This document shows positions 20,199-53,391 of a DNA stretch of 64,000 nt, piece by piece. The translations under genes were made by a program, and so were the position numbers. Source of the DNA: Chrysophaeum taylorii (lineage: Eukaryota > Sar > Pelagophyceae > Pelagomonadales > Pelagomonadaceae); assembly GCA_029834535.1 (NCBI GenBank), contig JAQMWT010000479.1, positions 62,001-126,000 on the forward strand. Direction: 5' to 3'. The notes under the pieces are model-generated. The model ran no database searches. It was not told the origin of the DNA and saw only the letters and a program-made list of their open reading frames with translations. Positions within the stretch are counted from its first letter, which is position 1. Every line of letters starts with the position of its first letter.

Positions 20199-22418
20199 AT
20201 GGTGAACGCTCTCTGGAACACCGTGCTCGGCTTTGCTGCCGCCGCCGCCGCCGCCGCCGAGGCGCCAATCGAGGCGATCCTTCTGACTGACCGCGTTTTG
20301 CCCTCGGGAGCTACCCTCGCGTCGGTGTGCGTCAACACAAGAGCTTTGCTGAGTTTCCACGTCATCGTCCCCGACCTCCTGGTCCCCGAAACGCACCCGC
20401 CGCCCGCGTGCAAGGGCGCGGCCTGGCGTGTGCTCGCGGAGAGCGCCGTCGCGCGGAGCATCCGCGAGAGCGGGCTACCGGCGACGTGGGAGCTGCGACC
20501 GCGACGCACGAACGTGACGGTACGGGTGGCCGAAGCGGACTTCTCGCCCGAGCATAGGTCCCCGCTGAAGAGCATGCGATTTTTTCTCGCGAGGCTCCCC
20601 GAATTCGCACATCTCGACCGAATCGTGTATATAGAGGACGACGTGATCGTGCAGGGCGACGTCGAGCGGCTCTGGAACTACGGCGGGGCTGCTCCCGTGA
20701 CCGCCGGCTGCCTGAGCTGGCTGTGGAACGACGAATGCGGGCGGTCGACGGCTGTTTCGCGCGCGTCCTACCTCGACACCCCCTCCTTTGGGTTCGGCTC
20801 TTTGTCGTCTTCGAGGAATAACGCGACGTGTGCCGACGACGAGCAGCGAGAGTGCGCACCCCCCGGGTTCTTCGAGTCTCTGTTCTCGCGCGCGGACGTT
20901 GATCTGAAGACGCTCGCCGCGCAAAGCGCGTGGAACTTTGGGATCAACAGGTTCGACCTCGCGGCGTGGCGCCGCCGCAACATCACTGGAAGGTATGTGG
21001 GCTGGATGCTCGCGAACGAGAGAACCGGTTGGTTCCCAGATACGTCTCTCTCTTACGGCGTTGGAATTCCGTATTTGGCGCTAGTCGACGCCGTCGCGTG
21101 CGTCGACGACGACCTCCCGATCCTCCACGGCCTCGGCTTTGTCGAGCTCGACGACCTGAAGATCAGCGTGGACGACGACGACGACGACGACGAAGATGTA
21201 GGAAAGTATTTTGCGCTCCAGTGGAACGGCGACAACAAACCCTGGCTCGCCAAAGGAGCGCCCTACGCCGACGCCTATTTGCGCCACGCCCCGCGTCGGC
21301 TCCGAGACCGGCGCCAACGCCGCCGCGCTGAGGTCGCGACGATGAAGCGGCAGTCGTTCGTGGTGTGGACGGGGCCTCGAAGCGGGTCCGAGTGGTTCAT
21401 GTCCGTCCTGGACGCGCACCCGCGCGTCTGCGCGTCGGGCGAGTCGAGCGGTCGTCGCGGGTGGCCGCGCGAGGCACTCTTCCCGCGCGACACGCGACCC
21501 TGGAACGACTGTCGCCCCAACTCTATTTGCAACTGGTCGATAGCTGCGCGACTTCTGGACGCGCTCCTGCGCGAAGAAGCGCCCCAGCCCGGCGACTTTC
21601 CAGCGCGACGAGCGTGCAACGGCGCGCGGAAGTCTAATCTCGAGGTGCTCTGCGGTCTCCTCGACCGCGCTCTTTCTGCTGCCGCTGCGAGGCGATCGTC
21701 GACGCCGCGTCGTGCCGACATCATGCAGGAGGCGTTCCGATTGTTTGTTGGTCACGCGCTCGGAGGCGCACCAGCCGAGGGGAAGAGCGATTTCGAGATG
21801 CCGTGCAGATGCCCCTACGGGACCATCGCCACCGGCACCAAGGTGATGAACGGGTGGTTCGCCCACACTCGAAGGAAATCTGCGGCCGCATCTTTTTCAA
21901 ATGACCACGTGGTCCAACACCACGAGCACGACATCGCGGGCGTATTGAAGGAACTCGGTGCGAAAGTGATCGTCCTCGATCGAACCAACCTCTTCGCGTC
22001 GTACGTCAGCCTACGAATCGGGCGGCAGATAACGAGCACCTTCTTAAGCTGCGCCGGCGGGCGCTGCGGCCACGAGGCTCGCGTCAACGTCACCATCGAC
22101 CGCCTCTTCCACTTTATCCGCACCACCCTCGCCCAGCGCGTCGCGAGGGATGCGCTGCTCGACGAGACGAAGGCAGACGTCTTGCGCGTCGACTACGAAA
22201 GGTGCGTTGCCAACACCGTGGCGTGCTTCGACGAGACGCTGAGGTTTCTCGAAATCGAACGCGGACCTCTGAACAATACCGCACTCCTGCGTTCCGGGGA
22301 CATTTTCTCGCGCGACGCGCTCCGGGACCGCGTCCTTAACTACGACGTCGTTTCCAAAAGCCTTACCGCCGCGGGCTTTGGCCATTACCTCACCCCCCCT
22401 CACCACCAGAAGGTAAAC

Positions 22419-22452
<34 letters not shown>

Positions 22453-25400
22453 TCCGTGCGGCACGAAATCTGCGGTTGGAACACGACGACAACAACAAAA
22501 ACAACGCTACTTTTCGGAAGTTTGGATCCGACGCGACGAAGGAGCTCGCGAGCTCGGAGAAACTAGCATCGACGAGCGTCCACGTGGCGCTGTTCTCCGA
22601 TCGATCGAACGCGATGGCGGTCACGCTCCACTCAGTGTGCGGAAAATCGGCACCAGTGACTCGACTCCACTTTCACCTGGTTTTGCCGGACGACAGTGGG
22701 CATCCCGCGTGGAACGTTAGAGATTCCGTCGAGAATTGCAAGGGCGCGGCGTTCACTCTACGGCACCTTTCATCCGTCGAGCGCGAGATCGAGCGCGTGC
22801 TTGGTACACCGCCGATTTGGGTATTATGGGACGAAGCGTGGTCGGCGCACGATCGTAAGCACCCGTCGCCGTTTGATCTTCTTTGCTTCTACGTGCCGGC
22901 GCTCTCCGAATACGAAAACGCGAGGACGATCATCTTTCTCGACGACGACGTCATTCTTCAACGCAGCATCTTCACAGCCCACCGAGTCGCAGCGCAACTA
23001 AAAGCTCATCCTTTAGTTGCGAGTTGCCAGAACTGGGTGTGGTCTTCCAGCAGTCGTGGCTTCGTCTGGACGACGCCCAAAACGTTTGAAAAAACACCGC
23101 ACTTTGGGTTCAGACCCGTCCAATTTGGACGGCCGCTTGCCGACACCACGCTCTGCGATACCCTGGTGGAGAGCGACGAGGCGGACTGCATGTCAGATGA
23201 CTTTTCTGACTTGTTGGATCGCGCTGCGCGCGACGTAACACGCGGCGGCGAGCGAGGAATCGCCAGCGACCTGCAGAAACGTGCGGCGTGGAACTTTGGA
23301 GTCGCGGCTATTGATGTCGCGTCTTGGCGCAAACACAACTTGACACGTCTATATCACGAGTGGGGACGTGTTGCCCAAGCGCACCAACTCTTCCCCACGA
23401 GATCTCTCGCGCTCGTCGGATTGGGCCTCGCATACGTCGCGCTGCGCGGACAAGTGTCGTGTTGGACAGACGAGGTCGCAGTCCTCCGAGGCCTCGGTTA
23501 CGTCAAACCGAGGGAGGTTACCGCAGCGGGGCTCAACATCGACGACGCCTTCGCCCTGAAATTCAATGGAGACGACAGGAACCTTCGCGAGTCTCAGTAT
23601 GGCCACATTTGGGAGACGCATGATCGGGATCTGCCGCACGTTTTGCTGGAGCACGGGGGTCGCGATAGAAGCGAACGCGAGCTCGAGGAATCCGGTGACC
23701 TTTACTGGACTTCCCACTCTCCAACCGAAAGTCTGACGCAACGTCCGACGACGCGTAATACGGTGGAGCCAATCGGCGGCGTTCCAATCTCGTCGCCGTT
23801 TACAAGGCCACCGTATCCGTGCCCTTTACGCGTACCAGCGCCAAAGAGCACGTCGCCACAATTTGTCGTTTCGGACGCAGTCCCCGCACCATTGCCGTCC
23901 GGCGTTCCATCACCAGGCATAGTGTCGTTTATTTCGGTTGCGAGCGCCGATGACAACACGGGAAGCCGCAAGCTCGGAGAAACACTCGATAAGGATTACT
24001 GTAGAGAATTTCGAGAATACCGCATGGACTTGTACGTTGCGCCGGTGCTCGAAAATTATTGGTCTATAGCCAATACCACTGGAAACATCATTCAAAGCAA
24101 GGTTTTCTGCCGGAATCAAACGCGCGCCGAAGCCACCCTGCCTGTCGACGCGGCAAAATCGGCGAGAGTTCTTGCTTACATTGTATGGCGGTGTAACGTC
24201 GTGCAAGATTCACCAAAGGCCGACATCACAGCGGCGGCAGCAATTGCGTCTATTCTAGAAGACAATAGCGCCAAGTTCGAAGAAGATGTCGTGGCACGAG
24301 TGAAGGAGAGCACGCGTGAATCGACTCTAGGCACAGGTCACGTGCTCTTTTATATTCAAGATCCAGATTACGGGTTTGCGGGCAGCTTTGTGGACTCGTC
24401 GTTCGCACCTACTATAGCACCGTCTAGTGGCTCCTCGACTTTATTCGACTTCAAACCGACGCGCGATGCAACAGTGGGTTCTTCCACCTTTTCCACAACG
24501 TTGCCGTCGATAGTACCAACCATGTGCAAAGATCAGCCGCAAACATCATCACCGCAGCTACGGACTGCCCGCTTCAGCAACTCTGGCGGGTGGCTCGAAC
24601 TCACGCTTGACAATGACAGTAATCGAGGCGGATACGGTGGACGTGCGTTCGAGTGCGGAAACCTTGTTGCGGTTCGAGGCTCAACGGTGCAATGCGTGTT
24701 TTTGCGCGACGATAGCATCAAAGTTGAGTTGGATTATACGAGTTCGATTATTCCAGGAGACGTTGTGACACTTTTTGGAGGGATCTTATTGCCGAAGAAT
24801 GCGCTTCCTTGCTGGGTGCCAGCTAACGACTCAACCGCTGTTCTACAGTTTCCGATAGCTCCAATTGTTCCTGACATAAAGTTTCAGGCACCGTGTGTTG
24901 TTGGCGTGTGTACGGCGTTGCAGATCGACATATCAGGTTCGTCGGGAGGCGGTGGCAGAGTCTTTGCTGATATCGAGTGGGTTGTTGTCGCGTCCGGTGC
25001 GCCAGCATACATCTCGCGTTTACTTGATCAAAAAGCGGCCGATGCTGCTGGAGTGCTGGAACTGGTAGTAGATGTGGAAATCATCGAGTCGCTTGTACGG
25101 TATGATTTGAGCGTGAGCGCGACTGTCACCAACTTTCTTGGAGGAACAGTGAGCGCGAATCTCCCGGCTATTCGAGTTATCAGCGAGCCAATCCCAGAAC
25201 TGTTTTTTGTAGGGGGTGAACCTCAGCACACGCAACGGCCACGATTAATGTCCGTGGTAGCAATGGCAACACTCTCGAGTTGTGTGTTGTCAACGAATCC
25301 GGATCCTGTGCTTCGCTACACCTGGAATGCTGCGAGCAATGACTCCGCGGGGTCACGTTTTATTTCATCGTCGCGCGATGTGCGGAAGTTCGAACTACCA

Positions 25401-28400
25401 TCGTATTCGCTGTCCCGAGAGGCGTCGCAGCTTGTCGTTGAAGCGAACGTCACTGACTCTGCTGGATTCTCGACGCAATGTGATCACATTATAGATATCA
25501 CCAAGTCACGCCTTGTTGCTGCCATCAATGGAGGTGACACCAGATTCGCATCCGCCGGAGACGTGCTGGTCCTCGACGCGTCTGCATCATATGACCCGGA
25601 TATTGGAAACTCGTCCAATGTCGCATCAGGACTGACCTACGCGTGGTCGTGCTCGCGAGAAGAGGATGTGGAGAATACATGTGCCACGTTCGAGCTGGCC
25701 GATGCGCCAATATTAAGTTTCAACATACCTTCTGGAATCTACGAATTCGAAGTCAACGTGAGCAGTTGCGACGGTCGAAGTTCTAGCGCGCACACCCGCG
25801 TCGAGGTCGTTGACTTGCCTGTGCCGCACTTCGAACTTCTTCCGGTGGTTGCGACGAAGATTGACCCCTCTAAAAAGCTCGTTTTTGAAGCCGTAGTTGG
25901 ACCAAATGATGAAGAGTGCATGATTGCATGGACACTCGAAGATGGCGCACTTTCTGAATCCCTCGCTTTGTCAGAATGGACAACGACTGAGCTGAGTCGA
26001 GTTATCAAGTCCGAGCAGGAAACGTCCATATACCTAGCCCTGCTACCTGGAGCATTGGTATCTGGGGCGACTTACAGGTTCGGTCTTTCGGCAGAGTTTA
26101 CTGAGACAGGCCACAATGGGCAGGCGACCCTTATCGTCACCGCGAACCTAGCGCCTACCTCAGGCTATGTTGCTGTTGACCCGAAGCGTGGTGTGACGCT
26201 CCAGACCAAGTTCAGGGTGAAATGTTTCCTGTGGACGGATGATCCCGAGGACTTACCGCTGACTTACACGTTATCTCAAGCGGTCAGTGCAGGCAGCGGG
26301 ACGGAGTCTTATCTGCGCCTTTTGTCCGGCTCTTATTCATCGACCCACGACGTATTCCTCTCCGAGGGTAATGCCGACCTGAACTACAGTCAGACAGTCG
26401 TTGCATACATCGAAGTACGTAATGCACCTCACATGGAGTATGATCTTTGTGCGCAGGATTATTATGGAGCTCGGGCAACGGCCTTCTCGGATGCCATGGT
26501 TTTTCCATTAGTCGACAATGCGACAGTCTTCGAGCTCGCTGCCGTCACTAACAGTCTTCTCGATGACGCGCTCTCACGCGAAAATGTGGATGAAGTCGCG
26601 CAGATTGTCACTGCAGCGAGCGCAGCGACCGTTAGCCACGGCAGATGCTCAAAAGTTTCCGATGCTTATTGTGTCTCGCTCAATCGGGATTTTTGCTCTG
26701 GAGATCAAACCTGCGGACCTTGCCTTGACGGTTATGATGGAGCCTCTGGCGACGGCAACACACAATGCACTTTGATCCAGGAGGGGTGTTTGGACGGCAC
26801 TATGAATGGAAATGAGACGGACGTCGATTGTGGCGGCGGCCATTGCAAGTCATGTCCTGGCGGCGCTGCTTGCTTCGATGACACAGATTGTCAGAGCAGC
26901 GTCTGCAGTTTCTACACGTGCGGGATCGGCATCGATGGGTGTAGCAGCACGACCTGCACTGGTCACGGGGCTTGTACGTTGCAAGATTACAACGGCGAGC
27001 CCGTTGCTGACATTCGTTCGTGCAGTACATACACTGTGACTGTGGGCACGAAGGTTGTGGACGCTTGCACCGTCATGTGCCAATGTTACGTGAATGAAAC
27101 CAGTGGTGAACCCGTGTGGTATGGAGATGCTTGCAACCTTGGCAAATCAGAATGGGTTACCACGCTGGAGTTACGCGACAGAATGATGTCCGCGTTGGTT
27201 TACGTCCACAAAACACAAACGCCGTCTGTAGCTTCGCTCAATCAACAGGCATCAACTCTCGCCGCTTTGGTTGACGAAGGTACTTTGCTCACCGATCAGG
27301 CACTTGTCACCGCAGTGGATCTCGTGCATTCGATCGCTATGGGGTCTATCAGGGAGGGGCTCGCCGAGGGGACTGTGGATTCGCTCGCGAGCTCTCTGTC
27401 GGGCATCCTTGGTGTGACCGCAGCTCGAAAAAAGGCATTGAGCGCCAACTTCACGCGCGCCATCGACTCATTGACGGCCGCGCTACTCGCCATTGCTGTT
27501 CCTGGAGAGGTGGCGGCGGACGTCGTTACCAGCAACATAATTGTCGTGGCACAACGAGTTATCAACCCCGGGGGTGCCACGCTATCTCTGCCTCGCGACA
27601 GCCCTGATGAGCCAACACCGAGCGTCACATTTCCATCCGATTTCGAAAGCGCTCAGTTTGATGCTGCGTTGATCGAATACCTTGACTCAGTCCATATTTC
27701 TGGGTCAGCTGTTGATTCAACCATAGTTCGCTTCACAACTACTACTGATACTTACACAATGAACTCATCGGGTGAGTTCACATTTGTTCTCCAGCACCGC
27801 ACTCCAATCGTCATCGACGAGGAAATAATCGCAAACGTGACAACGGTGATTAGCTGCGAGCCTGATGCAGCCGAGCTGAAAGTCGAAAGCAACAATTCCT
27901 TTTGCCACGGCTTGGACGTTTCAATCATTCGCGACGTTGCGTGTGCAAATTTAACGCGGCATCACACAGTAGAAGTTGCTTGCAGCAAGCAGGCAGGGTC
28001 CTGCGAGCGTTGGTTTGCTAATTCGACAGATTGGAAAACCGGCGCGTGTGTGCCGACATCCTTCACGTCGACGAACACAACCTGTGTTTGTCCCTCTCAA
28101 ACCGTCATTGGGGTAGATTCCGATTACGCTTCATCTTATAATTCTGCCTCATACTTGAACTATAACAGCAGAGCAGTCACTCAGCCATCTCAGCGATCCG
28201 AGTCCAAAGCAAAGCGTCCGTTGTACGAGTTCATCGGCGTTATGGCGTGCGTCTGGTTTATCCTCGCGATTCTTGGGTCGTTTGGAGACGCACAGAGCAG
28301 GGCCCTCTTGAGGTCCAAAGGGTTTTTCCAACTGCCGCATAAGTTGAATTCTTCGACGCAATTGCTTGGTTTGCTCGAAAGCAAAGACGTGAAGAACAAC

Positions 28401-31400
28401 AACCACAAGGCGTTCGTTGCTGCCGCGCTTCCGTCCGTTGTCGCGATATCCCAGAGATCAAGACATCGCAAGGCATACAACAAGACGCTGCTCGAAGGGC
28501 AGCGGCGCTTCAAGATATTTACCCGTATGTGCGATGTGCTCTCCAAGCAACACTGCTTGTTCAGCTTATACTTCGTCTACGACGAGCGAAAACCGCGCCC
28601 ATTGCGATGTTTCATTTTATTCTTCAAAGCAATGATCATTCTCGTCGGAGAGGTCAGCGCCTTCCACGTGGTGACGGTACAAACTTGTCATGCACACAGG
28701 CGGCCATAATCTGGTACAGCTTCCCAGCGGGTTTGTGCCAAAACGAGGACACAAGAGATTCTTGCGAAAACGCCAAAGGTCCTCTTGCAGCGTCTTGTAA
28801 TCGTACTGAGGATCAGTGTGACTTACTCTTTGCACTTTTCAATTTAGGCTCGTACGTCTTTGGGACAGGGCAACTCTGTCGATGGCACGAAACACATGAA
28901 GATTGCCAATTCAAGGGAGTGACTCACGACCAGGGTGCTATGATCCGCTTCCAAATAGTCTGCATGTGCGTGGCCGTCTCACTCCCATTGATCAAGCTGG
29001 TCGACTTTTTCAGCAACAACTACGTATATGTCACCGTGACCAGTGGCAACAATTCCGACAGCCGTGAGCAAGAAGTGGGTGAAAAAGGCCAGCCGTCGCT
29101 GAGAGCACTGCTGCGGCGAAGGCTCAGCAGGCGCATGAGCAGCGACCTCGACATTGTTCGCTGCAATTCGATTGACTCGCTTCAAAGCAGTGACACCGGC
29201 TTTTCGTCCTTTGAGTCGGATGAGGATGAAGACGCGAATTTTAAGGTGGGGCATGCACTGCTCCGGAACTTTCGCCTCAACGTCACCGAGGCGCTTCAAA
29301 GCTTTTCTAACCTGCGAAGGCATAGCCTCACGTTTGCCGCGGCAGCTCTCGTGCCAACAATGAGCATCGTCCTTCAGCAGAGGCTAGAGCTTACTGACGC
29401 GATTGCCGACATCGAAGCACGCATAAAAATGCGAATGATGCCTGGGGGCGATGCCGCACGGCGTGGATCAGACGCGGAGATGAACGCCATCGTCCAACAC
29501 GTCAAAGTAATCCTCGCTCATCACGACGCCTATTGGGACCTCGACCCAGACGCGCCAGATTGGCATCGCAAGTTCGCGACAAAGGTGCTTGGTGTCCTCC
29601 TGGAATCGTTGCGCATCGCAAAGATGTGGAACGAACGACTTGCACGTTTCGAAAGTGAGATGAACGAAGCAAAAGTGATTCGCGCACTCTATCAGCTCAA
29701 GGTGATCGAAGCGCTGGAACTTAGAGGTGAGCAAAACTTGTACATCCACGAGATGAAGCTGCAAGATCGCCTTGAAGGCCACCACGGCCAGTCTTTGGAG
29801 ACGCGCACGCGAGACCAGAAGGGTGCGGCGCTCTTCGTCGCTTTGGGGGCGTGTATTTGCGCCTTCCTCTTTCTTCTGCAGTTTGGTCGCGTCTCTGGTA
29901 AGTCGCAGATGCAGCTTTGGGTCTGGGGTTCTGTATTTTCGCTGGTCCTCATTCTCTTCGTGTTTGAGTCCATACGCATCTTGATGATTTGGTTCTATGT
30001 GCCATCGCTGTTGATTCCCAGGCTATCGCACATTGGCGACCCGCTTACAATGTCAGTCCCGCGTTTTCGCATGACCTTGGCGGTCCAGCCCGCAGACATT
30101 GTCGACTCGCGGCTCGTTCTTCAAGTCATGCGGTCGCCATTGGTGCCTGACGAAGTAAAACAGACATTTCGACAACGATTCTATCATTCGCAGCGAATGT
30201 CTTCAAACCAGAGACAGCGGTATGCTTCGATGATGTCCGACCTCGCGAGTACTTTCGAGGTGGTATCGGACAAGACTATGTGGAGGAAGGCGAACGAACA
30301 CTACTGCCTCTTCGGGTGCGATGATTCTCTCTCCCGACTCCTCGACGCTGCAGCACTCGTTTGTGAGTGCGAGCTCGACCATCAAGAGTCGGACCATCGA
30401 TTGGTGAACAGAGCGTACCGCGAAGCCAACGCCAAGCGCTGGGAGCTCGCGCATCTGGAGAGCGTGGCGCACGCACTTCGATGGCGCCCACCCCTTTCGC
30501 TTAATGCTCAAACATTTCTCACCGCCATGATTCTGAACACTTCCGACGACATCCAAGATCTCGTCATCGAGGAGGCTACAAACATCGCCGCATTTTCCTT
30601 CATTTATTTCATCGGCCGTGTGAGCGCCGGCCCAACACAGTTTCGACACACCATTGGGGCCTCTGCTGTGTTGCTCGTCGCGTTTATAATCGTCTTCCTA
30701 TGTTGTCTGTGGGCTTCCAGAATTGCACTCGTACCGCTCGCGATTTCTGCGAAAAAGCGCGTCGTGCGCTACTGCAGGCGTGGGAACCAACCCGAGATTG
30801 AATTGAGTGACAGTTCCGAGACTGGCGATAATGAATCAGAAAAGTGGTCAGACGACAAGAGTGAAACATCTGAAAGCGACGACGAGATTTGCGTCATGGA
30901 GAGTTCGTCGTTCGACGGCGCCACGATACACATCGAAGATGAAATCCAAGGGTCCCAAAAGCTGATCCTGAAGTCAACCTTCCTTTCGGCTATTTCGGAA
31001 CTAAACGAGAACGGCCAAGCCATCGATGACGACATCTGGGATGTCGGTGACGGCTATGACTCGCCCACCGAAGACGACGACGAGATTCTAGAGAAGGCGC
31101 CTTCCCGACTTGAGCCTTCGGCGACCGTTCTCTGGGAAACTCCCTCCGACGACGTGGACGAGAGTTCGGTTTCGACAGTATCCGCAGGTTTGTCGAGGCC
31201 ATCACCGTCACTCAATCAATCAGACAAAAACGTACGAGCGTTTGTGCCGTCGAGGCGATGCTCCAACGAGTCAAACTGGTACCTCGAAAGCGTCATGGGG
31301 TATTCAGTCTTGAGAAGGTTAGACACGATTGAAGAGGAGGAGGAGGAGGAGGACGACGAGGATGGTGACCTAATGTCGGTTTTGGGTTCGGACAATTCAG

Positions 31401-32596
31401 AAAGGCGCTTCGATGATGACGTTCACAATGTCTTCCAATTTGAGGAAGAGGGAGAGGTCGTCGACGACGAAGCATTGACCCTAGATCCGTTCTGGCACGA
31501 CGATGACGACGTCGAGGAGGAGGACGACGGGCCGCCGATCCAATCATCACGTATGGACTCCGTTAGTTTGCCCGACGACGACGGCGGTGCCGAGGACGAC
31601 GACGACTGTCAGCCCCAATCACCGCGCTTGGACTCCTGTTCGTGCGAAGACGAGGATGATGGGGTCGTGGACGATATTAATCAGCGGACCGATTCACCAC
31701 TCATGATGGATTTCACTTTGCCCAATGATGATGATTGCGTCGAGGGCGATGACGATCGACAGCCGCAACTTCGACGCCGAGATTCTCTTCTGCTCGACAA
31801 CGACGGTGCCGAGGGCGGCGTCAATTGGCAGGCCCAGAGATCATCGCACTCCTGTTTAGCCGACGACGACGGTGCAGAAGACGGCGACTGTGTGGAAGAC
31901 GACGACGCTGCGAAAGACGAAGTGGACGACGACGATGACGACTCCCAGCCTCTATCGCGGCATTCGGACTCGTGTTTGTCCAAGGATGATGATGATGCTG
32001 ATTATGATGGTGATGGCGACGTAGATCGGCAGACCCAAATGCCGCACTTGGACTCCTTGGACTCATCCTGTTCGCACAACGATGGTGGCGTCGAGGCCGA
32101 TCGCGAGCCCCAATCGCCGCGCGTGGACTCCCTTCTGCTCGAGAATCATAGTACAGACAAGAATTTGCAGGCCCGGAGATCATCGCACTTGGACTGCTAT
32201 TTACCCGACGACGATGGCGTTGAAGAGGATGACGAAGATTGGCAACCTCGCTCGCCTCGCTTCGAGTCTGGTGGACCCGATGCCGAGAACGACGAAGATT
32301 CGCAGGTCAGGAGATCATCGCACTTGGACTCGTATTTACCCGACGACGATGGTGTGGAAGAGGACGAGGATTGGCAGCCCCAAGTGCCGCACTTGAACTC
32401 GCTTCTGCCCGGCGACGATGGTGTGGAGGACGACGTTGATTGGCGGCCCCAGAGATCACCACACCTGGACTCCTATTTACCCGATGACGATGGTGTGGAG
32501 GACGACGTCGATTGGCGGCCGGCCCCATCTGCCAAGGTGGAGTTAGCATCGTTCTCGTTCTCCAGCGACCGGAGGAGGCGTAGTAGTAGTAATTAA
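20199..32596 (+). CDS. Giant GT8-sulfotransferase-GT8-REJ membrane protein (paralogue 1)
   Basis: About 4,124 residues if 20199-28676 joins 28700-32596. The ATG at 20199 is chosen because a signal peptide ([20 protein letters not shown]) follows. Domains in order: GT8 (about 22-350; YIEDDVIVQ, AWNFGINRFDL, LQWNGDNKPWL); sulfotransferase (about 382-730; GPRSGSEWF for the 5'-PAPS loop, VIVLDRTNLFASYVS for the 3'-phosphate); poly-Thr linker; second GT8 (about 791-1130; IIFLDDDVILQ, AAWNFGVAAIDV); a domain shared with paralogue 2 (from about 1262, DKDYCREFREY); REJ/PKD-like repeats (about 1430-2110; LVLDASASYDPD); a Cys-rich module (about 2150-2320; NGNETDVDCGGGHCKSC); then a membrane module with first TM near 2674-2696 and several more to about residue 3510; then an acidic repeat tail. 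The lumen/exterior-facing part would act on glycans with UDP-sugars and PAPS. The His of the GT8 metal motif is Gln in the first GT8 and Lys in the second. Confidence 0.8.
28677..28699 (+). other. Candidate ultra-short intron or frameshift in giant gene 1
   Basis: Homology to paralogue 2 changes frame here. The first frame is coding through FFKAMIILVGEVSAFHVVT and the second from AAIIWYSFPAGLC. The interval begins GTAC and ends CACACAG and is 23 nt; GT dinucleotides at 28671 and 28668 would give 29 or 32 nt. All three restore the frame with the AG at 28698-28699. A one-base assembly error would do the same. Confidence 0.4.
31540..32540 (+). repeat. Coding minisatellite, acidic tail of giant gene 1
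   Basis: More than ten degenerate units of roughly 25-35 codons. The core is SPRLDSxLPDDDGVEDDxDWQPQ-like, for example SYLPDDDGVEEDEDWQPQ and SYLPDDDGVEDDVDWRPQ. Late units are most alike and early ones more worn. The encoded tail is strongly acidic and should lie in the cytosol after the last TM helix. Confidence 0.8.
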
Positions 32597-32604
32597 TTTG
32601 TAGT

Positions 32605-32812
32605 AACTACCTAACTAACTTCAGACCTCTCCCGAGCATAGGAGCCAGGCCGGACCGACAGGAGCCAGTCCGGAATCACGGGCCTGTAGACGAGGAGCGC
32701 CGAAAGGTCGGTCGGCGGAGAGTGACCATCAAGCTTGTCGCCATGCGGCGAGGAGACCGCGATGTGACTGACAACCAACTCGTCGATAACCTTCCGTCTT
32801 CGCCCCCCGGCC
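32605..32812 (-). mobile_element. LINE-type 3' end, copy iv
   Basis: In minus sense it ends GGGAGAGGTCTGAAGTTAGTTAGG. It is flanked by the 9-bp direct repeat ATTTGTAGT at 32596-32604 and 32813-32821. Its body matches copy iii (GTTGTCAGTCAC ... GTCTCC ... TGGCGACAAGC). The insertion site coincides with the last base of the stop codon of giant gene 1, so the element forms the start of that gene's 3' untranslated region in antisense. Confidence 0.75.
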
Positions 32813-44464: not shown

Positions 44465-44747
44465 ACCACGTCACCGTATTGAGTTCTGAACTCGGTGTGC
44501 TGTCATCAGAAGAGTAATAAGTATACATCCCATACAGGGTACTGGGGCCGCAGTTTCGCTAACCCTTCGTCGTTAACCTTTCTGTTGCCGCTTTTCTGTT
44601 TTTATGAGGGTTTTTGAATGTCGACTGCTAAATAAAGAGGGTTTCTCGTTTTGTGTTCAAAAAATTAAAATTTAATGAATGCTAGTTCCTAGTTTTAAAC
44701 CTTACCCGTGCCTACTCTTAGATATGATTAGACTTAGTATTAGCAGT

Positions 44748-45132
44748 TGGTTGCGATGGAGGACGGCGCCTAACACGCTTGCTCCCTGCGGCGGCCCCGG
44801 CCGTCCCGGAGTGAGACGGTGCCTGCTCGCCTCCCGAGCTGGCCGGTTAGCACCCGGAAAGTCCGCGCTGGGATGGGGTTCGCTCGGTTGGGCAGAACGC
44901 GACGGACAGGTTGATTGTTCGTGGACCAACACGTCCGCGGCCTGCGACGCTTTTGCACGACCTCGCACAAGACCGCGCGCAGTGGCGGTCCGCCATCAAC
45001 AAGTCCGTCCTCGTCCCTCGCCTCTGCCCCAACTGCGTGATTTTCGTCTGTGATTCCGTACCGGCTCCTGCCGGTCCGGCCTGCCTCCCGTGCTCAGGAG
45101 AGGTCTGAAGTTAGTTTAGTTAGTTAGTTAGT
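44748..45132 (+). mobile_element. LINE-type 3' end, copy ii
   Basis: Flanked by TTAGTATTAGCAGT (44734-44747) and TTAGTATTACCAGT (45133-45146), a 14-bp target-site duplication with one difference. Contains LHDLAQDRAQWRSAINKSV, the conserved 3' block (CCGGCTCCTGCCGGTCC ... GGAGAGGTCTGAAG) and a GTTTAGTTAGTTAG tail. 5'-truncated. Confidence 0.78.
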
Positions 45133-45188
45133 TTAGTATTACCAGTCCACCTTTGAGCACGGGGCAGTCAGTACACGTGCTTTAAGAA

Positions 45189-45757
45189 ATGTCAGTTTCG
45201 TGGGGAATAAGAGGGTAAGTGTAGAGTTGCTGGATCCTAGCAGGGTGTGGGGAGAAATGATTGGTGCTCTGGGCGTGGCGGCTGCATTTGGCACCCCTCT
45301 CGTTCTGTATGCCGCCTCTCGCAAGGTCGCCTCGCTAGTCCCCAAAGAGGACGGCGAAGCCGTGCTCTTCTACGACGGAGTCTGCAATTTGTGTAACGCG
45401 TTTGTAAGCTTCGCCTTGCAGCACGAGTCCAAAGTCAAGTTCGGAGCTATCCAGACGAACGGCGACCTCATGCGCAAGCTCGGCGCAGGGGCCTTTGCTG
45501 AGGGCGGTGACCAGTTCCTCCGTACGGTCGTCCTCATCGAGGGGGGTCAAATCTACATTCGGTCCGATGCTGCGCTGCGGGTCGTTGCTAAGTTCAGCGC
45601 GCCTTGGAAATACCTGGCCGTATTCCACGTGCTTCCTGTGGGCATCCGCGACGCGGGCTACAAAAAGATTGCCAAGTGGCGCTATCGCATCTTTGGCCAA
45701 ACGACCGACCTTCGAGCCCCACCCCCCGAATACAAAGACCGGTTCCTCAACAAGTAA
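45189..45757 (+). CDS. DCC-family (DUF393) thiol-disulfide oxidoreductase-like protein
   Basis: Thioredoxin-like protein with the family's VLFYDGVCNLCNAFVSFAL block, DGxCxxC being the redox motif. QIYIRSDAALRVV and LPVGIRDAGYKKIAKWRYRI match the rest of the DCC family. Two start models exist. The simple one starts at the ATG at 45257. The other starts at the ATG at 45189 and removes a 29-nt intron (45215-45243), giving 179 residues with MSVSWGIRGVWGEMIGALG in frame. A hydrophobic segment (MIGALGVAAAFGTPLVLYAA) near the N-terminus could be a membrane anchor or targeting leader. All catalytic residues are present. Function in redox of thiols is inferred from the motif. Confidence 0.8.
45215..45243 (+). 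other. Candidate 29-nt intron
   Basis: Starts GTAAGT, a consensus donor, and ends CCTAGCAG. Not a multiple of three. Its removal links the ATG at 45189 in frame with the DCC coding region. Confidence 0.45.
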
Positions 45758-45792
45758 CGCGTTTTGAGTTGCTTTATTAAAGGCGGACGTAT

Positions 45793-46133
45793 AACGCGGT
45801 TTGCACTTCCTCTGATTGCTGACCGGTGCCTTGGAACCTGCGCCTCGCAACGGTATCCGTCCTCCCGGCGTAGGCCTGTTGGAAGCCGGGACGGGACAGG
45901 TTATTTGGCCGGGGGACGCAGAAGGAAACGACCACGACGAGGTGGTTGCCGGTCACTTCTTTGTCTCCGCGGCGCATGGCGACAGGCGCCAACTTTCCCC
46001 CGGCGCACCTTCTTCCAGCTCCTCACTCGTCTCTCGGCACCGTGACTTTTATCCCACGCGCCACGGCGCTGGGAATAGGCTAAGCTCCATGCACTGGGGG
46101 CTGGCCTATATATAGTGAGTTAGTTGGAGCGGG
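45793..46133 (+). mobile_element. LINE-like insertion, copy v
   Basis: Bounded by ATTAAAGGCGGACGTAT (45776-45792) and ATTAAAGGCGGGCGTAT (46134-46150), a 17-bp duplication with one difference. Internal sequence (GTTGCCGGTCAC ... GTCTCCGCGG ... ATGGCGACAGGC) is a diverged relative of copies iii and iv. The end, GTGAGTTAGTTGG, resembles their tails. It sits just past the DCC stop codon. Confidence 0.65.
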
Positions 46134-46150
46134 ATTAAAGGCGGGCGTAT

Positions 46151-46464
46151 GTACGGGGCACGTAGACGGAGAGGCTACAAAGACGGTCGCTTCCTGCGCA
46201 AGGGAAGCGTCTATAGTTAAGTACCAAACATCGACGAATTTAAGTCGAGGACGCAGCACCAATCATCGACGAAGTCAACTCAAGGACACAGCACATCGGA
46301 GCAACCCCAGCGGAAACTGCGTTTCGTGTCAGCGCGAAAACCTCTCGCCGAGGTGGGATACGTTGGGATAGGGTGGCCCCTTCGTTTTGTTTCGTTTCGC
46401 TTGGGGACCCCCCCTATATGCGTAGAGGATCCGGATCGTCGTCGTCGTCCGGGTTTGGCAACTT
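46151..46464. other. Intergenic between LINE copy v and giant gene 2
   Basis: Contains a short tandem duplication (ATCGACGAA ... AGGACGCAGCAC, then ATCGACGAA ... AGGACACAGCAC, about 46228-46295). No gene seen. Confidence 0.5.
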
Positions 46465-49400
46465 TCAAATTGCGTCGTGGGTGCTTGATTCGCTAGTGTC
46501 GGTATCGCTGCTCGCGTTGCTGTTTAGCGACCACCGACGGTGGGGCTGCTGATCGACAGCGTCTACGTGGGGCTGCTGGTCGACGACGCCTATATTGACG
46601 GCGATAGTCTCAGCTCTCCGCCGCGCTTCTTCGTCTTGGTTGTTGTTTAAGCCGCCGAAGAACACTTCGTTAAGGGTGTCGTATTCCGAGGACGTTCGAG
46701 GGAGCAATTCGACGAGCTGGGTGTCGTCGCTTGGGGTGCCGGCGCCGCTTTCCTTTCTGGATATCACCTGCTGGCTCCGCGGAGAGCCCTCGGAGTCGGA
46801 TCTGGCGAGATATGGGGAGCTCGGTGCGGTCTTTTCGTCCTCATCTTCCAAAAATGAACCATCGGCGGACCTGGCCACCAAGAACGGTAGGGTTGAAGAC
46901 AAGAGGATCCATGCAACGCAAGTTAAAGCGAGCAGCGAGGTGATAATGTATTCAACACCCGACTCGCCGAGGCAGTAGATCGCGACGAGAGCAACCAGCA
47001 CTATGGTCAAGTCGCACAGCATTTCGCCCGCGCTGCGGTGGTTCCCGAACACAATGGATGCGAGAGACGTTATTGCCGCCTCGAGCCGGGAAGGCTGCCA
47101 CGACACCATTGCCTCTACTCGCTCGAGGTACCCGAGGTTCCATAACCGGCCGTTTCGGTACCGGTGCTCGCGATAGAGCGTCTGGCAGTCGGCTTTGGCC
47201 GCGACAAGCCTATCGCACGCTTGGGCAGCCGCGCCGAGCAAGGTCTTGACGGTGTGGCCGGCTTCGTCCGCGAGCGCGTTCGTCATTGCCGCGAAGTGCT
47301 GCTTCCGCAACAACGTTACTTTTTTCGAGAGATGGTGGCGACGTTCGAGGCGGCGTCTGAGCTTGTCGGGTAGTTCTGTGGCTTGCGTGATTTGCTGTGT
47401 TGTGTGGCGCGCGTCGACGAGTTCGAGGACGTCGACCCCGGTCGAGTTGTAGAACGACAGCAACGGCGACTTAGAAGGGTCCCCGACGCGCTTGAGCCTC
47501 GGGAGAAGGGCAGAGGAGATGCAGCTCGAGACCCACAGAATGCGGAGAGATTCAAAGAAAACAAAAAAGACGAACGATACTGCGGATGCCCGCACCCACA
47601 ACTGCGATTGCTTGGTCACCCATTTGTTGTCGGCGTTTGTCAACTCCGGATCGTACTGGATGAGCACAAATAGGGACGTCGCCGTGACGAGGAGGATGCC
47701 CACGACGCCCAGGCCCGTCTGTGCCTTGGTCGCGCTGCCGGTTCGGGCGCAGAAGCCTTCGAGGATGTTGTGCTGCCTCAGCTCCGTTTCGAGCAGCATG
47801 ATCTCCCGAGTGTTGTTGTTGTTGTCGTCGTCGTCAGCGTCCACCGCTTCGAGCAACTTGAGTTGGTAGACGGAGCGGACCGCGGCACTCTCGTCGTCCG
47901 CCCGATGCATGGTGGCGAGGTGCTTGTCCCACGTGTCGGCGAGGCGGAGCGTCGACGACAGGTGCATGAAGACGCGCTTGGCGAACGGATACTGCCACGA
48001 CACATTCTGTTCGTTTTTCTCTCTGTATTCTTCTCCCGATCGGTAGAGGCTCCAGCGCTCATCGTGGTGCGCGAGCAGACTCTTCAGGCACTCTTGCTTG
48101 CGCTTTCCCTCCATCGAAGACAACGTGTCCGCGTCTGCGATGGCTTCCAATAGTTCGGACCGTTGGTGCAATATGATACTCATCGTCGGCACGAGACAGG
48201 CCGCGGCGTACTGTTGCCACTCCGACTGCAACCACGCGAACCGCTTCACCATCGTCTCCTCGAGTCTGAAGTTGTCGAGAAGGGCCCGCCCGACGTGGTG
48301 AGTCTCACCACGCTTTTTATCGGCGGCGGCGGCGGCGGCCACCCCACCCGGGGTCGCCACTGATTCCGCAAAAACATACTGAAAGCACATGTGGTCAACG
48401 AGTTTGAGAACAGGCGTCGCCAGCGCAACGCTCAAACAGGCAAGGTACGCGACAGTGCCTCGGTCGTGAATTAGGAGCGCGACGCGGTTAGCGCACAGCA
48501 GCACGAGACACTTTAGGAACATGGCAACACATCTCGCGGCACGAGGGCGGTCAGCGTCGAAAACAAATATGATGTTAAGGAGACTGTGCTTCTTGGCAAG
48601 GACCTCGCACATCACACCCATCGGTTTGCAGCACTTCGCGGCGTTGATGAAGAGCTCGCAGTAGCGGTCCCGCACTCGCGAGCTATGGCCGAAGGCGATC
48701 ATCGACGGGAGAGCGGTTGCGAGGTACGTCGAGCAGCACGTGATGAGATATCCTGGCGAATTGAGGGTATCGAGCTCTTTGGTTTTCATGTCGTCGTGGA
48801 GCCGTCCGAGAGAGCGCGCCTTGTCGCTGAAAAAGATGAAGAGCCCGACTCGCGGCGGCGAGGAGGCGCGAAGTTCGCGCCGCTTCGAGCTGTCGGCAAA
48901 CGCCCCGACGAGCGCCATAAGCACCCAAAAGGTAGTCAGACCGATGAGAAAGGTTGCCATCGTCGACAACCCGAGCCTCCGACGTAGAATGTTGCCCGAC
49001 GAAGAAGAAGAGGACGACGAAGGAGAGTCGGCCGTCGGCGCGGAAATAGGGGATGTCGGCTCCATCGTCGGCCGTGGCGAGAGGAGGATCGGCGTGAACC
49101 GCACTTGCACTCCAGAATCTTCTGTCACGTCTGGGGGCTCGTTGGTGCCACGGCTGAGGTGGAACTCGATGGCCTCGATAAAAACCGATGACACGTTTGA
49201 GGAGTTTAAGACGTGGCGAGCCTTCTGCCGCACCTCAGTTTGGAGACTAGAGAGGATGGCGTCGAGGGCGGCTTGCACCGCAGCCTTCGCGGTCGTCTCG
49301 TTTACGCCGTTGAGCAAGCGAAGGTCGACGGTGGCCACGATAGTTGCCATGACGTCATCCGGGTCCTTCCACGCGGGGGCTCGCGGGCTCGAACCGTTGA

Positions 49401-52400
49401 CGCACGTCGTGCTCACGCTTTTGAGCGAAAACTGGCGATCGTCGGCGGTCGTCGACAGTTGAGCGAACATGACGGAATCGTAGTAGGAGCCCATTCCATA
49501 CTTGCCAAACTCCTGACAATACGCGGAGTCTTCGTCGAGGCGGCGGCGGCGGCGGCGGTTCTCGCTGTGGTAAACGGGCACGTAGCCTTCAACGTTCTGG
49601 TAGACCGTGGTGGGCGCGGGGGTCAGGACAGCAACGGCGCCGCGAGAAAAGACATACGAGTCTTCGAGGCGTCGTTCGCTCAAGTTGGACAGGAGAGTCG
49701 ACGACTCTTCATCTTCCGAGGATTTTTTCGAGGCGAGGGCGCGAGTCTTCCAAAAGGCGTTGTACGGGGAACGGGGATCCCACGGTTTGACGTCGCCGTT
49801 GAAGTGGAGCGCAAACGCGGTGTCTATAGAGAGACCCGCCGCATCGATCTCGTCGGGGCGAACGTACCCGAGACCCTGGAGCACGTCGATGTGGTCGGCG
49901 AACGCAGCCGATTCCCAGCACTGGACGTGGCCCCGGAGGGCTACGTAAGCCAGACCGAGACCGTGGGCGAGGGAACCCGGCGGGAAGAGTTTGAAACGCT
50001 TCGCAGCGTCGGTCCACTCGTGGTACTTGGCGGTGAGTTTGTTCTCGCGCCACGACCTGACGTCGATCGCCGTAAGACCAAAATTCCAACCCGGCTCGAA
50101 CTCGAGCGCGCGAAGGTCCTCTTCCCACGAGCAGTCTTTCGCGGTTCGGCACGCCACATCGAACGCCGCTTCCGCGAGGGTGCTCATGAAGGTCGGTGGC
50201 ATGCAGTCGACGTCTTCGCTCGACCTGCAGTAAGCGTCGCTGATCGGGTGGCCTCGCCGGACAGGCCTGAACCCAAAGTGGGGCGTTTCGAACACCCCCG
50301 AGCTGACGCTCGGCTCCATCTTGACGGCGCGATTGATATCGGTGTCGTCGACGAAGCCAATCCAGTTCTGGCAGCCAGCCAGCAGGGTTTTGCTGTTGGC
50401 TTTCGCCGCGACGCGGAGGGCGCGCGCGACGTCGTCCTGCAAGATGACGTCGTCGTCCAACAGAAGAATCGTCCCCGCGTCGTCGAACTCGTCCAAGACG
50501 GGGAGGTAAAAACGCGCGAGGTTGAAGGGAGACGCGTGCTTGGGTGACCGGTCGCGCGCGTACTGCTGCTGCTGCTGCTGCTGGTGCGAGACGTTGTCAG
50601 CGTCGACCTCGAACCCGGCGGCAGCCCAGACCGGCTTGCGCCCCCCGAGCGCGGTCTCAATCTCCGCCTCGACGCTCCTCATCGACCGGAGGCGGAAGTC
50701 GGCGCCGAAGCACTCTTCGGAGACGCGTTGCTGGACGAGCCACGCCGGGTGAAGGAAGCTGTTAGGGAGTACGAGGTGAAAGACGAGGTTCGGGACGTCG
50801 AGGGAGTGCGAGCAGATGGAGCTCAGCGTGGCGCCCAGCGCAGCGTCGCGATCCGTCAAAATAACGACGTGCACCAGACCGTTGTCGTTGTTGGGGTGAT
50901 CTCGCTGTCCCTTCTTGGTGGTGACCGGCGGCGACGGGCTCCCGAGAAGAGATGGTGGTGGTGGTGGTGTTTTGAGTGGTTTCACCGGCAGCAGCGAGGC
51001 CGACCAGGGTTCGCTCGAGGTGGGCCAGCGGGCGTTGCTCTTGTTTAAGTTTTTGCGCGCGTCGACGTCGAGGAGGTGTTTGAAACCGGCAGCGGCGAGG
51101 CCGTCGGCGATGTTCTCGTAGTTGGCGATGCGGTCTTTGAGGGTGCGGGTGTCGCGCTTGAAGGTTGAGGCTCCGAGGAGGTCGTCGAGGATAGCGTGGC
51201 TCGAGTCGACTTGCAAGAAGTCGAGGACGTCCCCGAAGCACCGTCTGTTCATTTCGACGCACGCCTCGTACTCGACGTAGAGGACGGGGATGTCGAGATG
51301 CTCGAGCATCGCGTCGCGGGACAGCCGCTGGGCTAAAGAGGCTCTCACGAACTGGATCAGGCGGTCGATCTGGACAAAGACGCGGCTCGTGTGGTGGCAG
51401 GTCGCGCCAGAGCAGTGGAAACTGCCGGACACCTGACCGATTCGGAGACTCACGTACGAGCCCACGAGGTTCGAGCGGTCGAGGACGATGATCTTCGCGC
51501 CGATGGACCGAATGATCCCGGTCAAATTAAACGCGCCGTTCCCGGCCCGCGCGGTGACCTTATTACTCAAAGGATTCAGGTCGAACCAGCCGTTCATGAT
51601 CTTGAGTCCCGACGACGTCGTGTTGAGCGGACAAGAGCACGGCATCCTGAACCGAAGTCCGGAGCGGGTCGTGTTGTAGGAGTCCGGGAGTGGCGCGTCG
51701 TTGGAGAGATCGGCGCCGACGACTGTCGCAACGAATATCTCGAACGCGGCTTGCTTGAGCCGCGCGTGCCACGCGGCCGTGGTCTCGACGAGATCCTCCC
51801 GCGCTGATTCGTCGTTCACGTTTTGGGCAAAATGGATCGCCCTTTCTAGAAGAGCGCAGATTGTCTCGAGGTGGCTCCCGTAGTACGTGTAGTTGCCGCG
51901 CTCGACTTGGACGGCGTCGCAGGTTTTCGGCAGGCGGAGCTTGTAGTCGATCGAGGGGGCCTCGGGTTCGCGAAGCAGGCTGTCGAGGAGTCGGTTGGTG
52001 ATGGACCAATGGCACAACGACTTTGGCTGGCAGACGTCGGCCCACTCGGTCGCTTCGCGCAACGGAAGCAGCGCTTCGCGCGGCCAGCCTCTCCCAGAAG
52101 ACTGGGCCTCGCCCGAGGCGCAGACGTTGGGGTGGCCGTCGACGACCGCCATGAACCATTCGGATCCCGACCGCGGAGCCGTCCACACGAAGAAGCTCCT
52201 CGCCTGCCGCGCCTTGGAGACGTTCTTCGCGACGTCGATCGCGCGCCTCGCTTCTCGAAATTCGGCGTCGATTTCGGGCGCATATTCGAGGTAAAACGGG
52301 GCGTACTCGTCGATCGCGGTCTGCCAAAGCCAGGCCTTGCGGTCTCCGTTCCAGTGCAAAGCGAACCAACTTCCCAGGTCCTTAGGCTGGAGCGAACTGA

Positions 52401-53391
52401 GCCGGAAATCGTCGGGCTCCACGAACCCGAGGCCGTGGAGGATAGGCATCTGGTCGTCGATGCAGACGAACTCGTCGGCGAGCGCAAGAAACGGAATCCC
52501 GAGCCCGTAGGCGAGCGAATACGTCGGGAACCACCCGTAGACCCCGTTCGCTTGGACCCACGCGATGTACCGCTCGGCGAGGCCGCGCTCGCGCCACGCC
52601 GTCAGGTTGAACTTGTTTAGCCCAAAGTTCCAGGCCAATGTTCCCCGTAGCCCGGCGAGGTCGAGGGCGCGATGATCTTTTCGAAGCGACGCCGACACGG
52701 CCGCGATCGAGTCGAAAAAACCGGGCGGCGCGCACTCCTCGTCGTTTTCGGCGTCGCACGTCGCGTCGCGCTCGTCCCTCTCCTCCGACAGCGCCCCGAA
52801 ACCCAAATACGGCACCTCGACGTAGCTCAAGTTGAACGACGACTGCATCCGCCCGCACTTGGACCACACCCAGTTCAAGCACCCCGCCGAGATCGGTTCG
52901 TCCTGACGATACTCCCACAGCCGCGCGATATCCCCTCGCATAACCACGTCGTCGTCCATAAAAATTATCGAGTCGAGAAACGCGAATTCGGGCAACTTGG
53001 GGAGGTAGAACCGCAAACAGTTGAACACCGAGTTGTGCTTGGCCGACCTGTCCCACGACGCGACCCTGACCGTATAATTCGTCTGCGGCACCTCGATCTC
53101 CCACGTGATCGGAAGCCCCGTCGCGCGGATCGACTGCGTCACGTTGCTCTCGCTCAACAGCCGCAGATCCGCGGACGACGCGCATCCCTCGGGCATCAGC
53201 TCCCGCACCTCGCCGAGACGACGATCGGGGACGACCACGTGAAACCGCACGCGCGACCGCGTGTTCGCGCACACTGAATTCAGCACGGCCGACGTCGGCC
53301 GGATCCGATCCGTCAGAATGATGATCTCCACCTGCCCATCCTCCGCCGCCACGCCGACGGCACACACCCACCACCACCACCACCGCATCAT
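46465..53391 (-). CDS. Giant GT8-sulfotransferase-GT8 membrane protein (paralogue 2)
   Basis: 2,308 residues in one uninterrupted frame. Leader MMRWWWWWVCAVGVAA is a signal peptide. First GT8 at about 21-356: FMDDDVVMRGD (Asp146/147/148), AWNFGLNKFNL, and the metal/phosphate motif HWNGDRK (His346). Sulfotransferase at about 399-770: APRSGSEWF (406-413) and IIVLDRSNLVGSYVS. Pro-rich linker. Second GT8 with LLLDDDVILQDD, GWNFGLTAIDV and ALHFNGDVKPW. Then a domain shared with paralogue 1 (DEDSAYCQEFGKYGM), a Ser-rich stalk, and the multi-pass membrane module starting TMATFLIGLTTFWVLMALVG. It includes KHSLLNIIFVFDADRPR, LLDNFRLEETM, CLVPTMSIILHQRSEL and at least six hydrophobic helices. The GT8 and sulfotransferase motifs look intact, so this is the better candidate for an active enzyme. 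It lacks the REJ/Cys-rich region of paralogue 1. Confidence 0.85.
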   Translation of the reverse strand: MMRWWWWWVCAVGVAAEDGQVEIIILTDRIRPTSAVLNSVCANTRSRVRFHVVVPDRRLGEVRELMPEGCASSADLRLLSESNVTQSIRATGLPITWEIEVPQTNYTVRVASWDRSAKHNSVFNCLRFYLPKLPEFAFLDSIIFMDDDVVMRGDIARLWEYRQDEPISAGCLNWVWSKCGRMQSSFNLSYVEVPYLGFGALSEERDERDATCDAENDEECAPPGFFDSIAAVSASLRKDHRALDLAGLRGTLAWNFGLNKFNLTAWRERGLAERYIAWVQANGVYGWFPTYSLAYGLGIPFLALADEFVCIDDQMPILHGLGFVEPDDFRLSSLQPKDLGSWFALHWNGDRKAWLWQTAIDEYAPFYLEYAPEIDAEFREARRAIDVAKNVSKARQARSFFVWTAPRSGSEWFMAVVDGHPNVCASGEAQSSGRGWPREALLPLREATEWADVCQPKSLCHWSITNRLLDSLLREPEAPSIDYKLRLPKTCDAVQVERGNYTYYGSHLETICALLERAIHFAQNVNDESAREDLVETTAAWHARLKQAAFEIFVATVVGADLSNDAPLPDSYNTTRSGLRFRMPCSCPLNTTSSGLKIMNGWFDLNPLSNKVTARAGNGAFNLTGIIRSIGAKIIVLDRSNLVGSYVSLRIGQVSGSFHCSGATCHHTSRVFVQIDRLIQFVRASLAQRLSRDAMLEHLDIPVLYVEYEACVEMNRRCFGDVLDFLQVDSSHAILDDLLGASTFKRDTRTLKDRIANYENIADGLAAAGFKHLLDVDARKNLNKSNARWPTSSEPWSASLLPVKPLKTPPPPPSLLGSPSPPVTTKKGQRDHPNNDNGLVHVVILTDRDAALGATLSSICSHSLDVPNLVFHLVLPNSFLHPAWLVQQRVSEECFGADFRLRSMRSVEAEIETALGGRKPVWAAAGFEVDADNVSHQQQQQQQYARDRSPKHASPFNLARFYLPVLDEFDDAGTILLLDDDVILQDDVARALRVAAKANSKTLLAGCQNWIGFVDDTDINRAVKMEPSVSSGVFETPHFGFRPVRRGHPISDAYCRSSEDVDCMPPTFMSTLAEAAFDVACRTAKDCSWEEDLRALEFEPGWNFGLTAIDVRSWRENKLTAKYHEWTDAAKRFKLFPPGSLAHGLGLAYVALRGHVQCWESAAFADHIDVLQGLGYVRPDEIDAAGLSIDTAFALHFNGDVKPWDPRSPYNAFWKTRALASKKSSEDEESSTLLSNLSERRLEDSYVFSRGAVAVLTPAPTTVYQNVEGYVPVYHSENRRRRRRLDEDSAYCQEFGKYGMGSYYDSVMFAQLSTTADDRQFSLKSVSTTCVNGSSPRAPAWKDPDDVMATIVATVDLRLLNGVNETTAKAAVQAALDAILSSLQTEVRQKARHVLNSSNVSSVFIEAIEFHLSRGTNEPPDVTEDSGVQVRFTPILLSPRPTMEPTSPISAPTADSPSSSSSSSSGNILRRRLGLSTMATFLIGLTTFWVLMALVGAFADSSKRRELRASSPPRVGLFIFFSDKARSLGRLHDDMKTKELDTLNSPGYLITCCSTYLATALPSMIAFGHSSRVRDRYCELFINAAKCCKPMGVMCEVLAKKHSLLNIIFVFDADRPRAARCVAMFLKCLVLLCANRVALLIHDRGTVAYLACLSVALATPVLKLVDHMCFQYVFAESVATPGGVAAAAAADKKRGETHHVGRALLDNFRLEETMVKRFAWLQSEWQQYAAACLVPTMSIILHQRSELLEAIADADTLSSMEGKRKQECLKSLLAHHDERWSLYRSGEEYREKNEQNVSWQYPFAKRVFMHLSSTLRLADTWDKHLATMHRADDESAAVRSVYQLKLLEAVDADDDDNNNNTREIMLLETELRQHNILEGFCARTGSATKAQTGLGVVGILLVTATSLFVLIQYDPELTNADNKWVTKQSQLWVRASAVSFVFFVFFESLRILWVSSCISSALLPRLKRVGDPSKSPLLSFYNSTGVDVLELVDARHTTQQITQATELPDKLRRRLERRHHLSKKVTLLRKQHFAAMTNALADEAGHTVKTLLGAAAQACDRLVAAKADCQTLYREHRYRNGRLWNLGYLERVEAMVSWQPSRLEAAITSLASIVFGNHRSAGEMLCDLTIVLVALVAIYCLGESGVEYIITSLLALTCVAWILLSSTLPFLVARSADGSFLEDEDEKTAPSSPYLARSDSEGSPRSQQVISRKESGAGTPSDDTQLVELLPRTSSEYDTLNEVFFGGLNNNQDEEARRRAETIAVNIGVVDQQPHVDAVDQQPHRRWSLNSNASSDTDTSESSTHDAI

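Follow-up and report, generated by a model that had tools for sequence, protein, structure and literature searches.

Fused GT8 glycosyltransferase and putative sulfotransferase proteins with membrane tails in the pelagophyte Chrysophaeum taylorii

We analyzed a window of 64,000 nucleotides from the marine alga Chrysophaeum taylorii (contig C479, positions 62001-126000), in which two inverted paralogous genes encode large proteins that join two GT8 glycosyltransferase domains and a putative sulfotransferase (ST) domain to a membrane tail. The GT8-ST-GT8-membrane fusion is real in gene 2 (46465-53391, minus strand), and the fusion of a GT8-ST-GT8 part with a REJ-membrane part is likely real in gene 1 (20199-32596, plus strand). 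The original prediction of a pair was too narrow, as at least nine loci carry a GT8-ST fusion. Taken as a whole, the observations are best explained by a GT8-ST family of polysaccharide synthase-sulfotransferases with gene 2 as an intact and gene 1 as a partly dead member, a reading to which we give about an even chance.

Gene 2 is an uninterrupted frame (46465-53451, 2328 codons) with its first methionine at 53391, as predicted. NCBI annotates it as one protein (CTAYLR_006109, 2284 amino acids, start 53388), to which our product is 99% identical across 99% of the length. Third-position GC content is even throughout (0.70-0.84). A short hydrophobic start is followed by a first GT8 domain (GT8a, 52252-53361, with MDDD and HWNGDRKAW), the ST with the linker after it (50902-52251, identified by homology search and the motifs TAPRSGSEWF and LDRSNLVGSYVS), a second GT8 domain (GT8b, 49582-50886, with LDDDV and HFNGDVKPW), a further linker and a membrane module (46900-48951). 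The latter has seven hydrophobic segments, counted here and below by simple hydropathy with a threshold, and Pfam searches of gene 2 matched neither REJ nor GPS.

Gene 1 does not lie in a single open frame and would require an intron. Its first frame (19968-28709) runs for 2913 codons without a stop, and the coding sequence continues in a different frame at 28343-32596. Many GT-AG pairs could join the two; we chose 28653-28699 (47 nucleotides) as the most likely intron, since the product LVGEAAIIWYSFPAGLC aligns by eye without gaps with LFAETVAYWYTQPVGIC of the homolog P0013. The resulting model (exons 20199-28652 and 28700-32596) has 4116 amino acids. In 200 mononucleotide shuffles of 20199-28652, the longest open stretch in six frames was 313 codons, so the actual 2913 codons are not due to chance. 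After a signal-like start, the model contains GT8a (20280-21293; EDD at the DxD position and QWNGDNKPW as the HxG motif), ST (21351-22418, by homology search and motifs; TGPRSGSEWF as the 5' loop binding 3'-phosphoadenosine-5'-phosphosulfate (PAPS), and LDRTNLFASYVS as the 3' motif), GT8b (22578-23753; DDD present, HxGxxKPW lost and replaced by KFNGDDRNL), a REJ domain (25311-26612; 156 bits in the protein search and 160.9 bits in the genome search, Pfam cut-off 25), a GPS-like Cys/Trp motif (27999-28091) and a membrane module with six hydrophobic segments above threshold (28230-30709). The C-terminal third of the frame 28343-32596 is a long acidic repeat tail of DDDGVEEDDEDWQP-like units, which gene 2 does not have.

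The cores of the two genes are 40% identical (residues 24-1307 of gene 2 and 28-1284 of gene 1), and their membrane parts are homologous (23% identity, E-value 2e-48). Together with the frames, these values bear out two inverted paralogous genes at the predicted coordinates. The GT8-ST-GT8 cores of the original prediction stood, and details of gene structure and domain order did not. The order is not identical, as REJ and the GPS-like motif occur only in gene 1. Nor do the genes share a domain downstream of GT8b, as had been proposed: this segment of gene 1 matches paralogs on contigs C186 and C594 (26-28% identity) and not gene 2, whose linker matches only itself.

The GT8 assignment is clear. 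In whole-protein Pfam searches, both genes scored above the GT8 cut-off of 24.3 (88.6 and 107.4 bits, two stretches each). An AlphaFold2 model of GT8a-ST of gene 2 had a mean predicted local distance difference test score (pLDDT) of 61.7, and the best 50 structure matches all fell on the GT8 domain (residues 1-367), among them WbbM, LARGE1, LgtC, UGGT and glycogenin; by this model, GT8a has a GT-A type fold. Fold searching as originally proposed recovered GT8-type structures for GT8a, and the AlphaFold2 model of the gene 2 membrane module (mean pLDDT 46.3) was too poor to be used. Against PDB sequences, the GT8a profile gave four matches (best E-value 0.0056, a GT8 enzyme), the GT8b profile none to E 0.1 and the whole of gene 2 none to E 1. 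A search of five proteins against NCBIfam gave no match to E 0.1. The GT8 motifs may resemble those of plant GAUT enzymes, a likeness that enters none of the conclusions.

The ST assignment combines conserved motifs with weak profile scores and with relatives that score above the cut-off. Both genes contain T(A/G)PRSGSEWF and LDR-N----SYVS, which we take to be the 5' phosphosulfate-binding loop and the 3' phosphate-binding motif, respectively. The ST domains of the paralogs match Sulfotransfer_3 in 7 of 7 cases (E up to 1, best 2e-7), Sulfotransfer_1 in six and Stf0 in two. Searched against PDB to E 10, the ST gave 13 weak matches (best 0.039), 11 to sulfotransferases and two to the regulator LrhA; SULT1B1 and NodH were among the weak profile matches. 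Relatives were found in other data sets, namely P0005 (GT8-ST-GT8) and P0018 (GT8-ST) in source lgn, and P0019 and P0020 (both GT8-ST, representing 17 and 53 clustered sequences, respectively) in source jgi. P0005 (28.1 bits) and P0018 (32.6 bits) exceed the Pfam cut-off of 27. Several scores below this cut-off speak against the assignment: 14.8 bits (E 0.035) for gene 1, 14.5 bits (E 0.043) for the ST domain of gene 2 alone, 17.2 bits for P0019, which covers no more than the beginning of the ST, and 19.3 bits for P0020. As a whole protein, gene 2 had no Pfam ST match to E 1. In an alignment of ten proteins, invariant columns are found in GT8 and ST alike, PRSGSEW among them. Of the two predicted enzyme types, GT8 is confirmed by profile in both genes, and ST is putative.

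A search of the genome (70.8 Mb) with the ST of gene 2 gave 14 matches at nine loci, which is a lower bound. GT8 adjoins ST at all nine; a second GT8 is present at seven, and C529 and C575 contain a single GT8. A membrane tail is present at four loci (gene 1, gene 2, C186 and C594), three of them with REJ; the sequence retrieved on either side of the remaining five showed no tail.

Locus 1 could instead consist of two genes, one for a secreted or Golgi GT8-ST-GT8 protein (20199 to ~23919) and a downstream one for a REJ-GPS-like-membrane receptor, which we consider unlikely. Several observations favor such a split and count against a single gene. The NCBI protein CTAYLR_006104 (P0016) starts at 20199 and its last matched base is 23919, after GT8b, where a splice into a different frame is predicted. 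C594, whose halves sit in overlapping, different frames, is also annotated as two genes, and the annotation drew on RNA-seq and protein evidence according to part of the genome paper (PMC10366177). At about 23.8 kb, third-position GC of gene 1 drops from 0.65-0.82 to 0.51-0.64, and the flanks of five of the nine paralogs showed no tail, as reported above. However, such a GC drop would be expected whether the two units are joined or separate, and a similar drop is found within the single frame of C186. The 2913-codon frame crosses the junction, with no stop between 23650 and 24300 versus 4-8 in each of the five other frames, and C186 shows the same order as gene 1 in one frame of 4193 codons. 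Since the frame is open across the junction and C186 has this layout in one frame, we regard the join as likely. NCBI annotates gene 2, whose tail is homologous, as a single protein. The NCBI models also look wrong in the P/T-rich linkers after GT8b: those of C286, C594 and C186 (P0014, P0007 and P0008, respectively) enter other frames or odd splices there, P0014 and P0007 lose a KPW motif that is present in the open frame, and P0007 and P0008 pass into translated repeats. Further head-tail fusions may therefore be hidden by annotation.

The core tree has eight rows, with a midpoint root for drawing only; C529, C575, P0018 and P0020, in which a second GT8 is missing, were excluded. Gene 2, with a tail, groups with C370 and P0005, which have none (support 97/96). 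C186, C286, C594 and C544 cluster together (100/100), and within this cluster C594 (tail) is sister to C544 (no tail; 100/100). Given this intermixing, the tail was presumably gained or lost more than once. The end branch of gene 1 is by far the longest (1.26 versus 0.14-0.64). Trees of the GT8 domains were poor: several outside GT8 rows were highly divergent or read in the wrong frame, and support values had not stabilized. We therefore make no claim of an internal duplication as the origin of GT8a and GT8b.

The GT8-ST fusion probably predates C. taylorii, since the relatives from other data sets share it. Scans with few patterns, which do not show absence, gave 2 and 15 pattern matches in two scans of viral contigs and 47 in one scan of prokaryote genome contigs, none of them a confirmed relative. 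In searches of open-licence PMC papers, we found no description of a GT8-ST fusion family or of an enzyme head on a REJ-GPS-multi-pass chassis, and the main text of the genome paper (PMC10366177) does not mention glycosyltransferase, sulfotransferase or polycystin.

The membrane part had originally been called polycystin-like. Judged by sequence, this label would apply to REJ and the GPS-like motif of gene 1 alone, and we narrowed it because no channel or PLAT domain matched. PKD_channel gave 13 matches in the genome, none of them at the two genes, and PLAT was matched neither by the whole proteins (to E 1) nor by the membrane parts (to E 10). The membrane parts had Pfam matches to other families, all of them below cut-off. 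The membrane-module profile had no PDB match to E 10. The GPS-like pattern was recognized by eye, the Pfam GPS profile does not match gene 1, and no recognizable HL(T/S), which we take to be the GPS cleavage site, is present. P0013, a further REJ protein from C. taylorii, has a sub-cut-off GPS match (E 0.0085) and two weak PDB matches (flightin, E 0.22; a PKD-repeat protein, E 0.61). The segment KHSLLNIIFVFDADRPR, which had been likened to polycystin-1, is conserved in P0013 as DHSLFSIFYVYDPRSPR, with the PKD_channel and PLAT profiles unmatched.

The tail of gene 1 is 26% identical to that of P0013 (E 9e-27), and the tail of C594 matches P0011, P0012 and P0013. The predicted multi-pass character agrees with the hydropathy counts of six and seven segments in genes 1 and 2, versus 11 in polycystin-1. 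C186 also has six, C594 and P0011 have five, and a pattern of 1+2+2+2 in order is common to gene 2, P0013 and P0012. The genome contains 45 REJ matches (contigs C667, C40, C322, C2, C349 and others) in frames of up to 6175 codons, indicative of a large receptor family.

The GT8 metal-binding motifs are kept in gene 2 (DDD and His in both domains, with KAW for KPW in GT8a) and degenerate in gene 1, where neither domain retains its His and one DxD begins with Glu instead of Asp. C575 shows identical D-to-E and H-to-Q replacements in its only GT8. Since gene 1 has lost these residues and retained its ST motifs, its product probably cannot transfer sugars, though it may remain able to use PAPS.

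For the family, we propose the following mechanism. The signal-like start would direct the chain to the secretory pathway. UDP-sugars and PAPS, which GT8 and ST need, are found in the Golgi lumen, so an active gene 2 product would have to work in the Golgi with its head in the lumen. The two GT8 domains may add two sugars alternately, as in LARGE1, and the intervening ST could sulfate the growing chain, possibly at each repeat. Gene 2 would be the catalytically intact, membrane-anchored member. Gene 1, with the same core on a REJ-GPS-like-multi-pass tail, would probably be a sulfotransferase, sugar-binding partner or receptor and not a polymerase, given the loss of metal-binding residues; a binding or receptor role seems the simplest reading of its sequence. 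The product might be a component of mucilage or theca. C. taylorii is described in part of the genome paper as a colony-forming pelagophyte embedded in mucilage (PMC10366177), and theca, wall and mucilage of pelagophytes arise from Golgi vesicles, according to sections of a second paper (PMC12168098). Mucilage of other pelagophyte genera is pink with toluidine blue in the same sections (PMC12168098), which fits acidic polymers and does not show sulfate. The GT8-ST family may build sulfated mucilage. Overall, the original interpretation is partly supported: the fusion and the proposed sulfated-polysaccharide builder gain support, above all for gene 2, the alternative of a sensor fits gene 1 with its degenerate GT8 sites, and the polycystin label is narrowed.

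Alternatively, the tailed members could be cell-surface recognition receptors that use the enzyme domains as non-catalytic sugar-binding heads, an explanation we regard as improbable. The losses in gene 1 would agree with it, although catalytic motifs are mostly kept across the nine loci: DDD and His of GT8a in 7 of 9, DDD of GT8b in 7 of 7 and its His in 6 of 7, and PRSGSEWF in 8 of 9 (PHSGSEWF in C186). UDP-sugars and PAPS are not expected extracellularly, which would suit receptors, but tail-less paralogs occur. Also in favor is Esi0130_0068 of Ectocarpus, described in part of its report as a candidate male reproductive gene encoding REJ, GPS and 6/7 transmembrane segments, with signs of positive selection (PMC4700764). 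An assembly or annotation artefact that fused unrelated genes is highly improbable: the long repeats in the C186 and C594 linkers are the hardest places to assemble, yet the GT8-ST order recurs at nine loci and is shared by four proteins found elsewhere than in this genome.

Within the synthase-sulfotransferase reading, it is conceivable, if doubtful, that such an enzyme was grafted onto a REJ-GPS-multi-pass receptor and that gene 1 then lost glycosyltransfer, leaving a receptor head descended from a ligand-making enzyme. If so, mucilage synthesis would be linked to mucilage sensing. The layout suggests a route from enzyme to receptor on a chassis common to animal egg-jelly receptors. To our knowledge, the sulfated polysaccharides that marine algae produce hold a large amount of carbon, and little is known of the stramenopile enzymes that synthesize them; two GT8 domains and a sulfotransferase in a single chain offer a direct candidate that can be tested.

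Other genes in the window also encode glycosyltransferase-like proteins. A protein with a GT15 (mannosyltransferase) domain (57426-59081, minus strand, 2e-15) lies near gene 2. The single frame 59082-60902 (plus strand) combines a 2OG-Fe(II) oxygenase (3.9e-13) with a PF11397 GlcNAc-transferase (1.8e-54), presumably resembling Skp1 prolyl hydroxylase fused to its GlcNAc transferase. A GT29 sialyltransferase-like protein (PF00777, 3.4e-9) is encoded in this alga at 10201-12195 (plus strand). By eye, 5733-6536 (minus strand) resembles the end of a PIF1/Helitron-type helicase, with no Pfam match at E 0.01.

Parts of this architecture are found in known systems. With Stf0, NodH and other PAPS sulfotransferases, the family has the 5' PAPS loop and the 3' motif in common, with weak profile matches, whereas all nine ST loci of this genome adjoin GT8. 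NDST (N-deacetylase/N-sulfotransferase) likewise joins a sugar-modifying enzyme to a sulfotransferase, but it has no glycosyltransferase domain. LARGE1 is a human dual glycosyltransferase (GT8 and GT49) and thus also has two glycosyltransferase domains per chain. It produces an alternating polymer, as stated in part of PMC9746966, and alternating polymerization by gene 2 would be by analogy only. In contrast to LARGE1, both domains are GT8 here, an ST lies between them, and the membrane part is C-terminal and multi-pass. As in polycystin-1 and the receptor for egg jelly, REJ and a GPS-like motif precede the first membrane segment in gene 1; unlike in polycystin-1, PLAT and PKD_channel had no match, the simple count gives fewer membrane segments, and gene 2 has no REJ. 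Compared by description and not by sequence, Esi0130_0068 resembles the tail of gene 1 in REJ, GPS or a GPS-like motif, and 6-7 transmembrane segments. It differs in that the same part of the report names no enzyme domain and gives a polycystin channel match (PMC4700764). With this Ectocarpus protein, a chassis similar to that of gene 1 is already known in stramenopiles.

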